39,254 nucleotides of DNA, taken from IMG/VR virus record IMGVR_UViG_3300029911_000083, positions 1 to 39,254 of that record; one strand, given 5' to 3'. Positions within the stretch are counted from its first letter, which is position 1, and each line of letters starts with the position of its first letter. The notes beneath the pieces are model-generated. The model saw only the letters and a list, made by a program, of their open reading frames with translations. It did not search any database and was not told the origin of the DNA. Shown here in pieces: positions 11,117 to 18,054 of the stretch. A program made the translations under genes and the position numbers. Source of the stretch: a virus.

Positions 11117-11125
11117 TGGTATAAT
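11117..11125 (+). promoter_or_regulatory. Extended -10 promoter for the tRNA-like gene
   Basis: TG-G-TATAAT, a perfect consensus, ending nine bases before the tRNA-like 5' end at 11135. A transcription start around 11132 fits a short tRNA precursor. It overlaps no gene. Confidence 0.65.
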
Positions 11126-11134
11126 CAAATCTAC

Positions 11135-11216
11135 GGCGGGTTAGCTCAGTGAAAGAGCACCTATCGGGAGCAATCTTGATAGGAGGTCGGAGGTTCAATT
11201 CCATCTCCTGCCACCA
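11135..11216 (+). tRNA. tRNA-like gene with atypical hairpin in place of anticodon loop
   Basis: Acceptor GGCGGGT (11135-11141) pairs with TCCTGCC (11206-11212) except at position 7-66. D stem GCTC/GAGC has a shortened AGTGAAA loop lacking GG. Variable AGGTC, T arm GGAGG-TTCAATT-CCATC (one A-A mismatch), discriminator A and encoded CCA are present. The anticodon arm is 24 instead of 17 nt: CCTATCGGGA-GCAA-TCTTGATAGG (11160-11183) folds into a 10-bp stem with a GCAA tetraloop. No 7-nt anticodon loop can be assigned. It could be a degenerate tRNA, a tRNA with a small insertion, or a tRNA-mimicking RNA. Confidence 0.6.
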
Positions 11217-11314
11217 ACTTTAAGAAAGGTTATATGTCATAGATTACTGGTCCTCCCTAAATCCTATTAAGCTTCGCATAGACTTCAATACTATCAACTT
11301 ATAAAGGATTTAAA

Positions 11315-11884
11315 ATGAAAACACAAATATCAAAACTCAAGCAAGACCTCAAGGGTATTGCAAAAACAATCAGACAACAAAAGAAACTTAGAAAGCCATC
11401 TCATCCGCACCACGATAAGTATATCGGTGCCTGGAGTGTAGAGTTACTTTCTATACAATATAGACACAAGCATGTCGCTTATTGCCTTGCACGAGGTCGC
11501 ACTCTAGAGCAATGTGATAGCGGCAATGGCCTTGACATGGACTACGTCAATTGGCTCCTAGAGGTGATGAACCCGGAGTCTAAAGAGAAACTCTATGTCG
11601 TTGTGAATCAAAAGCTAACGGCATCGCAGCAAGCAGTTCAATCTGCTCATGCAGTAGCTGAGTTCATGAAGAAGAACCCTCACACCCTGTGGACAAATGG
11701 TTACCTTATATTACTAAAGGATAATCCATCTTCTCGCGGAGATATGTCTTACTACGGTGTATGCAACAACTATCAGCATCAGCGAGCAGAATTCATAGAG
11801 CCGGATCTTGGTAACAAGATAACCGCATATGCGTTCTTTGGGCCGAATGCTACTCAGCAACTCAAGGATAAGTCTCTTCTTTAA
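11315..11884 (+). CDS. PTH2-like (peptidyl-tRNA hydrolase fold) protein
   Basis: 189 residues, ATG behind AAAGGA. The C-terminal half (from ~92) reads EKLYVVVNQKLTASQQAVQS-AHAVAEF. This matches the first strand and helix of the PTH2 fold, in which the K/N...Q-x-x-H/S-A helix carries catalytic residues. The N-terminal ~90 residues form a basic helical segment followed by HKHVAYCLARGRTLEQCD, an extension seen in some phage relatives of the family. PTH2 enzymes cleave peptidyl-tRNA. The position between two tRNA genes fits a role in tRNA recycling during infection, but the fold also serves other functions, so activity is uncertain. Confidence 0.6.
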   Translation: MKTQISKLKQDLKGIAKTIRQQKKLRKPSHPHHDKYIGAWSVELLSIQYRHKHVAYCLARGRTLEQCDSGNGLDMDYVNWLLEVMNPESKEKLYVVVNQKLTASQQAVQSAHAVAEFMKKNPHTLWTNGYLILLKDNPSSRGDMSYYGVCNNYQHQRAEFIEPDLGNKITAYAFFGPNATQQLKDKSLL

Positions 11885-11888
11885 TTAG

Positions 11889-11970
11889 TATAAATAGATT
11901 GTAGTGCCAACGCGTGACGTGCGCTGGGTAAATGCCGTCCCTACGGGAAAATAAACTCGGCTACATCAAT
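11889..11970 (+). other. Structured leader region with T4-late-like TATAAATA box
   Basis: TATAAATA (11889-11896) equals the T4 late promoter consensus by sequence. It is followed by hairpin CCAACGC/GCGCTGG (11907-11927, one mismatch), CCGT-CCCT-ACGG (935-946 in the 11000s) and flanking TGTAG/CTACA (11900-11904 with 11961-11965), suggesting an enclosed multi-hairpin RNA. It precedes a 44-codon membrane protein gene. No known riboswitch was recognised. Confidence 0.35.
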
Positions 11971-11973
11971 TTT

Positions 11974-12108
11974 ATGACTGAACGAACTGTATACTTAACT
12001 ATAATCCTCGGAATGCTCTTAACCATGTGCTATTATTTCTCTTGGGAAACTCAGCACTATGAATATATTGAGAGTAAGTTCGACATAACATTTTCCCACT
12101 GTAAATGA
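11974..12108 (+). CDS. Small single-pass membrane protein (44 aa)
   Basis: ATG at 11974, TGA at 12106-12108. Residues ~6-24 (VYLTIILGMLLTMCYYFSW) form a hydrophobic segment after a short N-terminus with one Arg, and the C-terminal ~20 residues are polar. The last two bases overlap the 5' end of the CUA tRNA. No good Shine-Dalgarno is seen. A size and topology compatible with a small holin or an exclusion peptide are noted, without further support. Confidence 0.45.
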   Translation: MTERTVYLTIILGMLLTMCYYFSWETQHYEYIESKFDITFSHCK

Positions 12109-12183
12109 TCTCTTAGCTCAATTGGTTAGAGCGGACCCCTCTAAAAGGTACGGTTATCGGTTCGAGCCCGATAGAGATCACCA
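12107..12183 (+). tRNA. tRNA with CUA anticodon (putative amber suppressor)
   Basis: Acceptor GATCTCT/AGAGATC pairs perfectly over 7 bp, as does T arm ATCGG-TTCGAGC-CCGAT over 5 bp. D stem GCTC/GAGC has loop AATTGGTTA with GG, the variable loop is CGGTT, the discriminator is A and CCA is encoded (12181-12183). The 17-nt anticodon arm (12134-12150) has loop CTCTAAA, putting U33 at 12140 and anticodon C-U-A at 12141-12143, which reads UAG. The anticodon stem is weak: pairs 28-42, 29-41 and 30-40 form, while 27-43 (G-A) and 31-39 (C-A) do not. The amino acid cannot be deduced. tRNA identity is secure; the CUA reading depends on canonical spacing. Confidence 0.85.
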
Positions 12184-15810: not shown

Positions 15811-16324
15811 TGGTACTCCTAGTCAAGTAGGTAATCAAAGTTTCTTGATGGATGATATCTATCCAGCTATGAGATCCTGTTTCTCTGATGAAGCGGGAAA
15901 AGCTCTTCATAATAGAGCTAAGACTACCCTGTATCAATGGGATGAAGTTAAGGGTCACGAAGGACTCGCTAGTTTATTGCATAAACTTCAATTTAAAACT
16001 GGTCACAATGCTTATGCTTGCTATCGACGTGTAGCGCCATGTTTCTATTTTGGTGGTGCATGTGAAGGACAGTATATTGAAAAAGTCGCAATGAAGTTAA
16101 TAGACATGATAAATGACTTAGCATCTAAAAAGTACATATTAGCTACTTTGGCGCCATTAAGTATAATACAGATGGCACTTACAGGTCCATTAGATAAACA
16201 GAAGTATGTAATAGTTTCTTACCTACATCTGGATCAAGTTGGAGAAGCCTATGTCAAAGCAACCTATCCCCATCTTTGTATGGAAGAGGGTGCTTACCCT
16301 AAAGAATTTGGAGACGACGAATGA
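15737..16324 (+). CDS. Hypothetical protein (195 aa)
   Basis: ATG with AAGGAG eight bases upstream, inside the methyltransferase-like gene, so the long (74-base) out-of-frame overlap is real rather than a wrong start. Contains four to five Cys (MRSCFSD, CYRRVAPCFYFGGAC) and two helical stretches. Not recognised. It is coupled to the chaperonin by an ATGA overlap, raising the possibility that it is a client or partner, an inference from position only. Confidence 0.75.
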   Translation: MPSNSGNPLALKKSISQAVLNLISSGTPSQVGNQSFLMDDIYPAMRSCFSDEAGKALHNRAKTTLYQWDEVKGHEGLASLLHKLQFKTGHNAYACYRRVAPCFYFGGACEGQYIEKVAMKLIDMINDLASKKYILATLAPLSIIQMALTGPLDKQKYVIVSYLHLDQVGEAYVKATYPHLCMEEGAYPKEFGDDE

Positions 16325-18054
16325 TATACGAGAAAAGTAAAGCTAAGAGCATTACAGCAGATAGAGCGAAGATTCGCAGGATCGTGAACGACACGATCAG
16401 TGAGATGGCTCAAGTTGTAGGAGCTACTCTAGGACCGGGCGGACGCCCAGTCATCTTAGAGCGCGACGGCTTGTCTCCTCTTGTAACAAAGGACGGAGTT
16501 ACCGTTGCTAAGAGTTTAGGAGTTGCAAATGCAGAAGCTAACCTCATTATCGAGTCTGCAAAGGAAATTTGCCTCCGTACCGCTAAACAGGCAGGAGACG
16601 GTACAACTACAGCTATTGTCCTTGCTAGCGCTATTACGCATCAAGGTTTAGAGTTCTTAGAAAAGAATCCCAAATACAATCCTCAGCGTATGGTTAATGA
16701 ACTCAATAGCTTATACGAAAACACTATCGTGCCGTTCTTGAAGCAGCACGCGAAACCAGTAAAGGAACGTCATGAACTTATCAATGTTGCTACTATTAGC
16801 GCTAATGGAGATGCGGCTATCGCCGTTGCAGCCGTTGACGCAGTTATTGCTGCAGGTGAAGATGGTCAAGTACTCATTGAGGAAGCAGATGACTCAGGAA
16901 TCAGAGTCGAAACGATCGATGGTTGTATAGTAACTAGCGGTCTTAAAGATATCGGTTCTATTGGTTTAGCTTTCATCAACGATCGTGCTGGTCAGCAAGC
17001 TAAGCTTGATAACGGTCTTGTGTTCCTATACGACGGAACGATGAACGATCTTAAGGTTCCAGCTGCTATCCAACAAGCTGTTGGAGCAGAAGATTCACCC
17101 ATGTATGGAAGACCTATCCTTGTGTTTGCGCATGGATTCTCTGACGTAGTTTTAGACAAGATGGCTAAATCAACTAAGGGTGGTTATTCTATTATTCCAG
17201 TTAAGACTCCACTTGGAGGCGTTGCCAACTCTCGCTCTATGTTCTTGTATGACATGGCTGCATATACGGATGCCGACGTTGTTGATGTTGCTAACTTAGA
17301 GTTCTATGCAGCAGAAGATACACTAGACGAAGCATTTGGTTCTTTCATTAATGCTAAGATTAATATGTACGAGACGTTCGTTACATCAGAACAGAATCAT
17401 GAGAAGATTGAAGCTCGTATCGCTGAACTAAAAGCTATTGCGGAAGTTGCTCCAGATGAGCGTCAAAAGATGTTCGCTAAAGCCGCTATCAGTAAATTGA
17501 CCGGTGGCGTTTCTACTATCTGGGTAGGTGGCGGATCTGAATTAGAAGCCAGAGAGAAAAAAGCGCGTGTTGAAGATGCAGTTGAAGCGGTACGTTCTGC
17601 TATCGCCGAAGGTATTATTCCTGGCGGTTGTGGAGTTCATTTAGTGCTTTCGGACATTATTGCTAAGACGGAAAATCGTCCCTTGTCTTGGGACATCATG
17701 ATTCATGCTCTTAGAGCTCCATTTGAAGTTCTATTATCTAACTGCGGTGAAGATTTCACAGATGTGTGGAATGCTTTAGAGAGACACATTGTTGGTCAGA
17801 AGCAACCACCTCAGTATATCTTCGACGCCAATGCGCACAAGATTGTTAATCCTTATCAAGCAGGTATTATTGAACCTGCGAAGGTCTGTAGGGTGAGTTT
17901 AGGTAACGCTCTCTCTGTAGCATCACTGTTGATCACCTTAGGCGGAATTGTTGTTACCCCACGTGACGGAGCTTTCGAGAACCAATTAGGTATCGCTCGC
18001 GACGCATTTAAAACTATGATGGACCCTAATACAGGTATCGTAGGACAGGAGTAA
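16321..18054 (+). CDS. groEL: GroEL-type (group I) chaperonin, phage-encoded
   Basis: 577 residues, full length compared with 548 in E. coli GroEL. Equatorial ATP-site motifs are intact: TLGPGG (36-41), VTKDGVTVAK (55-64), AGDGTTTA (91-98), catalytic Asp D419 in ARVEDAVEAVR, and IIPGGC in place of VAGGG. The apical region (about 185-385) is diverged and the C-terminal GGM tail is missing. The C-terminal region is longer between 470 and 577. No GroES is encoded in the window. Known phage GroELs (phiEL, AR9) fold phage proteins and can act without a co-chaperonin. Ribosome binding uses GGAG in the preceding gene. Confidence 0.95.
   Translation: MIYEKSKAKSITADRAKIRRIVNDTISEMAQVVGATLGPGGRPVILERDGLSPLVTKDGVTVAKSLGVANAEANLIIESAKEICLRTAKQAGDGTTTAIVLASAITHQGLEFLEKNPKYNPQRMVNELNSLYENTIVPFLKQHAKPVKERHELINVATISANGDAAIAVAAVDAVIAAGEDGQVLIEEADDSGIRVETIDGCIVTSGLKDIGSIGLAFINDRAGQQAKLDNGLVFLYDGTMNDLKVPAAIQQAVGAEDSPMYGRPILVFAHGFSDVVLDKMAKSTKGGYSIIPVKTPLGGVANSRSMFLYDMAAYTDADVVDVANLEFYAAEDTLDEAFGSFINAKINMYETFVTSEQNHEKIEARIAELKAIAEVAPDERQKMFAKAAISKLTGGVSTIWVGGGSELEAREKKARVEDAVEAVRSAIAEGIIPGGCGVHLVLSDIIAKTENRPLSWDIMIHALRAPFEVLLSNCGEDFTDVWNALERHIVGQKQPPQYIFDANAHKIVNPYQAGIIEPAKVCRVSLGNALSVASLLITLGGIVVTPRDGAFENQLGIARDAFKTMMDPNTGIVGQE

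Follow-up and report, generated by a model that had tools for sequence, protein, structure and literature searches.

A suppressor tRNA encoded by this phage and a nearby leader peptide interrupted by UAG most likely form a stop-gated translation attenuator. The window analyzed here spans all 39,254 bases of a virus record that is itself part of a larger phage; IMG/VR yielded both identical contigs and relatives. Comparison of these sequences strongly supports a decoding link between the tRNA and the leader: it reveals the leader and its reading frame, an invariant UAG, conserved coding after that UAG, a covarying hairpin, linkage to the cognate tRNA and, in one phage, an opal codon matched by an opal anticodon. 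The arrangement in the window is probably one instance of a widespread form of natural phage regulation, in which stop-interrupted leaders control a helical-domain gene, with or without peptidyl-tRNA hydrolase 2 (PTH2), and can be translated to their end only with a dedicated phage suppressor tRNA whose anticodon matches the stop (UAG/CUA, UGA/UCA and possibly UAA/UUA). The elements of the locus are as follows.

11117..11125, + strand: extended -10 promoter-like sequence, TGGTATAAT, just before the tRNA-like RNA; kept in many relatives
11135..11216, + strand: tRNA-like RNA on the 5' side of the leader, its anticodon arm a 10-bp hairpin with a GCAA loop; Rfam tRNA score 38.2 bits, hairpin kept in relatives
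11225..11229, + strand: Shine-Dalgarno sequence of the leader (AAAGG), from the sequence
11234..11260, + strand: leader mini-ORF, Met-Ser-UAG-Ile-Thr-Gly-Pro-Pro-stop; in 14 of 14 homologs, with fixed length and synonymous variation after UAG
11240..11242, + strand: in-frame UAG that the tRNA is proposed to read; TAG in 14 of 14 protein-defined homologs
11258..11271, + strand: 5' arm of the hairpin, beginning at the leader stop codon; fold and arm-swap test
11298..11312, + strand: 3' arm of the hairpin, containing the Shine-Dalgarno sequence of the controlled gene; fold and arm-swap test
11315..11884, + strand: controlled gene, an N-terminal helical domain fused to a PTH2-fold domain; AlphaFold2, Foldseek and PHROG 3668 ('hydrolase')
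12107..12183, + strand: amber-suppressor tRNA with anticodon CUA at 12141-12143 and an encoded CCA; ARAGORN and Rfam

The suppressor tRNA and the interrupted leader

The original prediction had placed a CUA-anticodon tRNA at 12107-12183, and ARAGORN and Rfam (tRNA score 56.7 bits) both agree. By its fold and anticodon this is an amber-suppressor tRNA, predicted to be charged and to decode UAG; the ARAGORN label 'tRNA-Pyl' is that program's name for a CUA anticodon, and the cloverleaf is canonical. The two anticodon-stem mismatches described earlier (27-43 and 31-39) are present as G27.A43 and C31.A39. Relative L028 has both as well, and elsewhere in the lineage CUA tRNAs show either A.C pairs at 30-40 or a C.A pair at 31-39. 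Because such mismatches recur in relatives they are no mark of a pseudogene, and we ruled out that reading on this recurrence together with the preserved anticodon loop.

The same mismatches might suggest that this tRNA is a relic, or that it decodes some other codon, and that its closeness to the leader reflects chance or shared synteny. We consider this very improbable. The anticodon loop CTCTAAA is near-constant (TTCTAAA or CTCTAAC in a few copies) while the acceptor stems vary, and several relatives carry two CUA tRNAs in tandem that differ in acceptor stem and discriminator base, the latter being A, T or G across copies. A CUA tRNA occurs in the same neighbourhood in all relatives at 44-74% identity of the neighbouring protein, and is conserved in all those that carry the leader. 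No CUA tRNA was found in 73 control loci (629 kb) surrounding further members of the same lysozyme family, and the tRNA-leader association reappears in unrelated cultured phages.

Alignment of the neighbourhood identified a conserved block that separates the lysozyme gene from the gene at 11315-11884, where the original prediction contained neither the mini-ORF at 11234-11260 nor the tRNA-like RNA at 11135-11216. In the window this block reads AAAGG-N4-ATG TCA TAG ATT ACT GGT CCT CCC TAA. We compared 14 distinct loci defined by protein homology to the product of 11315-11884, a definition independent of the leader pattern. In all 14, ATG-NNN-TAG-N9-CCN-CCY-TAA is found 52-59 nt before the start codon of the gene, with TAG at codon 3, Pro-Pro at codons 7 and 8, an invariant length and a CUA tRNA nearby. 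The codons after the UAG do vary: codon 7 is CCT, CCA or CCG, codon 8 is CCC or CCT, and codon 6 is AAA, AAG, AGA or AGG in 12 of the 14. Each of 13 records contains the pattern a single time, and it is absent both from reversed controls and from G003, a relative with no CUA tRNA. Synonymous change after the UAG, combined with a fixed frame and a Shine-Dalgarno sequence, is the expected trace of translation through UAG. A small GGUU/ARCC hairpin overlaps codons 4-7 in approximately nine of the 14 leaders, and could explain part of the conservation of codons 4-6. As far as its sequence goes, the gene is preceded by a short ORF with its own Shine-Dalgarno sequence, as an attenuator would be.

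Could the leader instead be a two-codon minigene (Met-X-UAG, with UAG a true stop), in which peptidyl-tRNA drop-off senses hydrolase activity and the remainder is an RNA element? Minigenes and drop-off are already known, and in the clade of the window a peptidyl-tRNA hydrolase lies downstream. Nevertheless, we judge this explanation improbable in view of the synonymous variation and fixed frame after the UAG, and because UAG is never swapped for UAA or UGA where the CUA tRNA is present. Several observations described below also weigh against it, namely the UGA/UCA match in Agrobacterium phage Atu_ph07, the longer pre-stop parts in BUCT-ZZ01 and OLIVR1, and several carriers without an adjacent PTH2.

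The locus contains further structured RNA. The tRNA-like RNA appears from its sequence to be a tRNA without a usable anticodon, located at the 5' end of the leader transcript, where it is possibly a processing signal, a decoy or a 5' stabiliser. Sister copies (L106, L144-L151, L154, L168) have an encoded CCA and an anticodon-arm hairpin of 6-10 bp, whose loop is a GNRA tetraloop (GCAA, GAAA) in some copies and A-rich in others. The element is missing from L152, L155 and L156, and is therefore not essential. A sigma-70 scan did not detect the promoter-like sequence at 11117-11125. A structured non-coding region of fast-changing sequence (approximately 11887-11975) separates the hydrolase gene from the CUA tRNA; it directly follows a TATAAT-like box and is closed by a GTGCGG...CCGCAC-like stem. 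Larger versions exist in G002, G004, L146, L148-L150 and L154, and Rfam returned no match to it in L025, L028 or L029. Elsewhere in the window, 16321-18054 encodes a phage GroEL-like chaperonin approximately 31% identical to that of Myxococcus phage Mx1.

The hairpin, the downstream gene and a proposed switch

A further line of evidence comes from the hairpin. We computed duplex energies for native pairs of arms and for arms exchanged between species, with p-values obtained by permutation. In the first comparison, native arm pairs average -12.5 kcal/mol vs -7.7 for swapped ones (p about 5e-5). Adding 13 more divergent loci gives -11.3 vs -6.4 (p 2e-5), and those 13 loci alone give -10.0 vs -5.7 kcal/mol (p 2e-5), with weak pairing in two of them (L169 and L205). 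The pairing in the window itself is among the weaker, at -6.1. In other words, arm-swap covariation points to a conserved structure that hides the Shine-Dalgarno sequence of the gene. The UAG lies 18 nt short of the leader stop, and a ribosome positioned at that stop would overlap the 5' arm.

The C-terminal domain encoded by 11315-11884 (AlphaFold2 pLDDT 87) has a PTH2 fold in the predicted model. Its best PDB match in Foldseek is 2zv3 (E 7e-4, probability 1.0), which is M. jannaschii MJ0051, a peptidyl-tRNA hydrolase. A Pfam search for PTH2 gave no match for the window protein, and the L161 homolog matches PF01981 below cut-off (E 0.027). The model of the helical domain (pLDDT 82) had no match in the PDB. 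The two domains are separate ORFs in L156, L161 and L172, and in the cultured phages DLP5, DSS3_MAL1 and BUCT-ZZ01 the leader is followed by a helical-domain gene with no PTH2 beside it. The helical-domain gene is therefore the more constant partner of the leader.

We propose the following mechanism. The phage-made tRNA would decode UAG, which ribosomes beginning on the leader reach at codon 3. With too little charged suppressor tRNA they would terminate there, leaving the hairpin intact and the Shine-Dalgarno sequence of the hydrolase gene inaccessible. With the suppressor tRNA present they would continue to Pro-Pro-UAA, a slow-termination context, and pause; the paused ribosome would cover the 5' arm of the hairpin, freeing the Shine-Dalgarno sequence so that the helical-domain/PTH2 protein could be made. 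Pro-Pro before a stop is reported to be among the strongest termination-stalling pairs in E. coli (Hayes 2002, as cited in PMC7246954), and by analogy a ribosome may well pause at the Pro-Pro-stop of the leader. Decoding in vivo, the pause, the ON direction of control, its timing and its purpose are the parts of this scheme that we infer. A plausible purpose is a leak-proof delay or an AND gate, with the gene made only after suppressor tRNA has built up. More speculatively, in the clade of the window a hydrolase made during stop readthrough would suit the clean-up of stalled products.

Decoding of UAG might be real and the control different: readthrough might bring ribosomes nearer to the gene and raise expression by plain translational coupling, or it might lower expression, with no Pro-Pro pause in either case. 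Sequence cannot tell the direction of control, and GAP32-type leaders have no immediate stop after Pro-Pro. We nonetheless regard this explanation as unlikely. Pro-Pro-stop is preserved in 14 of 14 loci with synonymous change. The 5' arm begins at the leader stop or a few bases from it, and the 3' arm contains the Shine-Dalgarno sequence, a placement to be expected if a paused ribosome releases the hairpin.

Stop-codon usage and occurrence in other phages

A suppressor tRNA together with scarce TAG stops had suggested an early stage of recoding. The stop count behind that suggestion holds (28 TAA, 20 TGA and 3 TAG in 51 genes of the window), but the near absence of TAG was not confirmed as a trait of the lineage. 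Among genes of at least 100 amino acids, TAG is the stop in 7% in the window, in 9.3-16.1% in long sister records with CUA tRNAs (G004, G005, G015, G016 and G017), and in 20.5% in relative G003, without a CUA tRNA. The scarcity in the window is a mild local bias. For example, TAG terminates both the terminase gene and the DNA polymerase III gene of G005. Conserved in-frame extensions were no commoner after TAG than after TGA or TAA, and a check for code-15 recoding did not find many in-frame TAG codons in conserved genes. A frame-blind TAG comparison yielded only noise and was set aside. We rejected genome-wide TAG recoding on stop usage and the lack of conserved TAG extensions.

A lineage moving partially or recently toward TAG as an amino acid, like some crAss-like and Lak phages, would be compatible with the CUA tRNA and the few TAG stops of the window. 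Because TAG is an ordinary stop in the sister genomes, ending 9-16% of their genes, essential ones included, this idea is already contradicted and we give it almost no credence. The genes sampled gave no support to the suggestion that the tRNA helps with amber codons elsewhere. The third option in the original prediction, controlled readthrough in a few genes, was correct as to the kind of control, but the UAG concerned is codon 3 of a nine-codon leader outside the annotated genes.

To measure how far the arrangement extends, viral contigs were scanned for the leader pattern with a Shine-Dalgarno start, and CUA tRNAs within 3 kb were counted. The UAG pattern was found in 46 stretches, 27 of them with a CUA tRNA at that distance. 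A further seven have a helical-domain or PTH2 gene and 12 have neither, although for two of the 12, both short loci, the leader adjoins a CUA tRNA in other contigs. None of the stretches matching the control patterns (8 for TGA, 15 for TAA) had a suppressor tRNA or a homologous gene. The search itself fixes codons 3, 7, 8 and 9; among 29 distinct leaders, 27 have Ile, Val or Met at codon 4, which it leaves free, and 22 have Lys or Arg at codon 6. The possibility that the leader is a chance motif was tested against UGA, UAA and reversed patterns and rejected. A scan of genome contigs gave two candidate matches.

Cultured phages carry the same pair. One IMG/VR match (L222) is Stenotrophomonas phage DLP5, in which the leader MK*VYKPP* (asterisks denote stop codons) is followed by gp070 and then by an annotated tRNA-Sup-CTA. 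Its leader is shared with DLP3 and Summit, in both cases beside annotated suppressor tRNAs, and Summit has a synonymous CCG. Three further phages were reached by helical-domain homology, with the pattern not used. DSS3_MAL1 has the leader MKS*IRPPP* and a CUA tRNA; Synechococcus phage BUCT-ZZ01 has MGGDAS*INLKPP* and a CUA tRNA; and Agrobacterium phage OLIVR1 (L273) has a GTG start and the leader IEPL*IKKPP*, also ending in TAG. The OLIVR1 leader adjoins a tRNA annotated as tRNA-Val, with an eight-base anticodon loop holding CCTA, which might read UAGG or UAG.

Atu_ph07 is annotated with an opal suppressor, UCA (PMC6102473), which our analysis confirmed. Because this suppressor reads UGA, we searched the 490-kb genome for a TGA version of the leader, a prediction set beforehand. 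There was a single match, ATG AAG TGA ATC GTT TTT AAA CCT CCA TAG; here too, a hairpin covers the Shine-Dalgarno sequence that follows. The loose search pattern is expected to match approximately once per such genome by chance; by our own estimate, the exact frame together with Ile (codon 4), Lys (codon 6) and Pro-Pro-stop would arise by chance with a probability of 1e-5 to 1e-4. No helical-domain homolog was recognised in the gene downstream.

Other phages depart from the arrangement. GAP32, CBB, BF and XbC2 (L231, L244-L246) have ML*NPSTGPP-like leaders with no immediate stop. In GAP32, CBB and XbC2 the readthrough is in frame with the next gene, and the outcome would be a protein with an N-terminal extension, not an attenuator. 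Elsewhere in its genome, GAP32 encodes a PTH2 and a CUA suppressor tRNA. In Prevotella phages Lak-B7, A2 and C1 (L232, L240, L241), a suppressor tRNA with a UUA anticodon adjoins a helical/PTH2 operon, and an in-frame UAA interrupts the short leader of that operon (MKLQ[HF]W-UAA-VT...); this is a lead to what may be an ochre form of the switch, in phages that recode TAG as well. NCTB has a helical-domain homolog and no clear leader. The 634-kb phage LR745206 (L242) has a leader-like MM*INTYYNFVVVPP* before a PTH2 gene with a TAG near its own start, despite which no suppressor tRNA was present among the tRNAs examined. XacN1 has CUA tRNAs and one weak match to the pattern with no gene close downstream, which we did not accept as a leader.

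Relation to known systems

Attenuation that responds to ordinary tRNAs or to drugs has been described before. Attenuators of the ermC kind combine a short upstream ORF, a stalled ribosome and a hairpin hiding a Shine-Dalgarno sequence, and TnaC has a proline before its stop. The phage system resembles them in its short upstream ORF, its Shine-Dalgarno-hiding hairpin (ermC) and its proline before the stop (TnaC). It differs in its input, which appears to be the decoding of a stop codon, whereas they sense a drug or tryptophan. Our literature search, which covered few subscription journals, turned up no description of a natural leader whose control depends on a suppressor tRNA.

The tRNA-leader pair looks like a genetic switch, and suggests a purpose for the orphan suppressor tRNAs of cultured phages. 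If our reading is right, many such tRNAs would be regulatory molecules, not relics of recoding, and the leader would be a concrete candidate target in DLP5, DLP3, Summit, DSS3_MAL1 and BUCT-ZZ01, and by way of UGA in Atu_ph07. It may also bear on the origin of stop-codon recoding in phages.

The pair would be a natural counterpart to engineered suppressor-tRNA switches. The 'Uaa transcriptional switch' has a TAG in a leader peptide that is read by a suppressor tRNA (review PMC6412442), and likewise ties downstream expression to suppression of a UAG-interrupted leader; it is synthetic, acts through transcription termination and uses an unnatural amino acid, while the phage system is natural, apparently translational and served by a phage tRNA. 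The engineered feed-forward loop known as a 'leak dampener' (PMC7969014) shares the AND-gate or delay logic in which expression awaits a suppressor tRNA, but is synthetic, with stops inside the regulated gene and no leader or hairpin. Recoding phages with Sup-CTA tRNAs (PMC11210395) also encode a CUA tRNA that reads UAG; they have in-frame TAG in many genes, whereas in the phages described here TAG still serves as an ordinary stop and the tRNA probably acts on a single leader codon. The orphan suppressors of Summit and XacN1 are likewise CUA tRNAs without recoding, for which the authors found no target (PMC9022506, PMC5852040): no convincing leader was found in XacN1, whereas Summit carries the leader described here.
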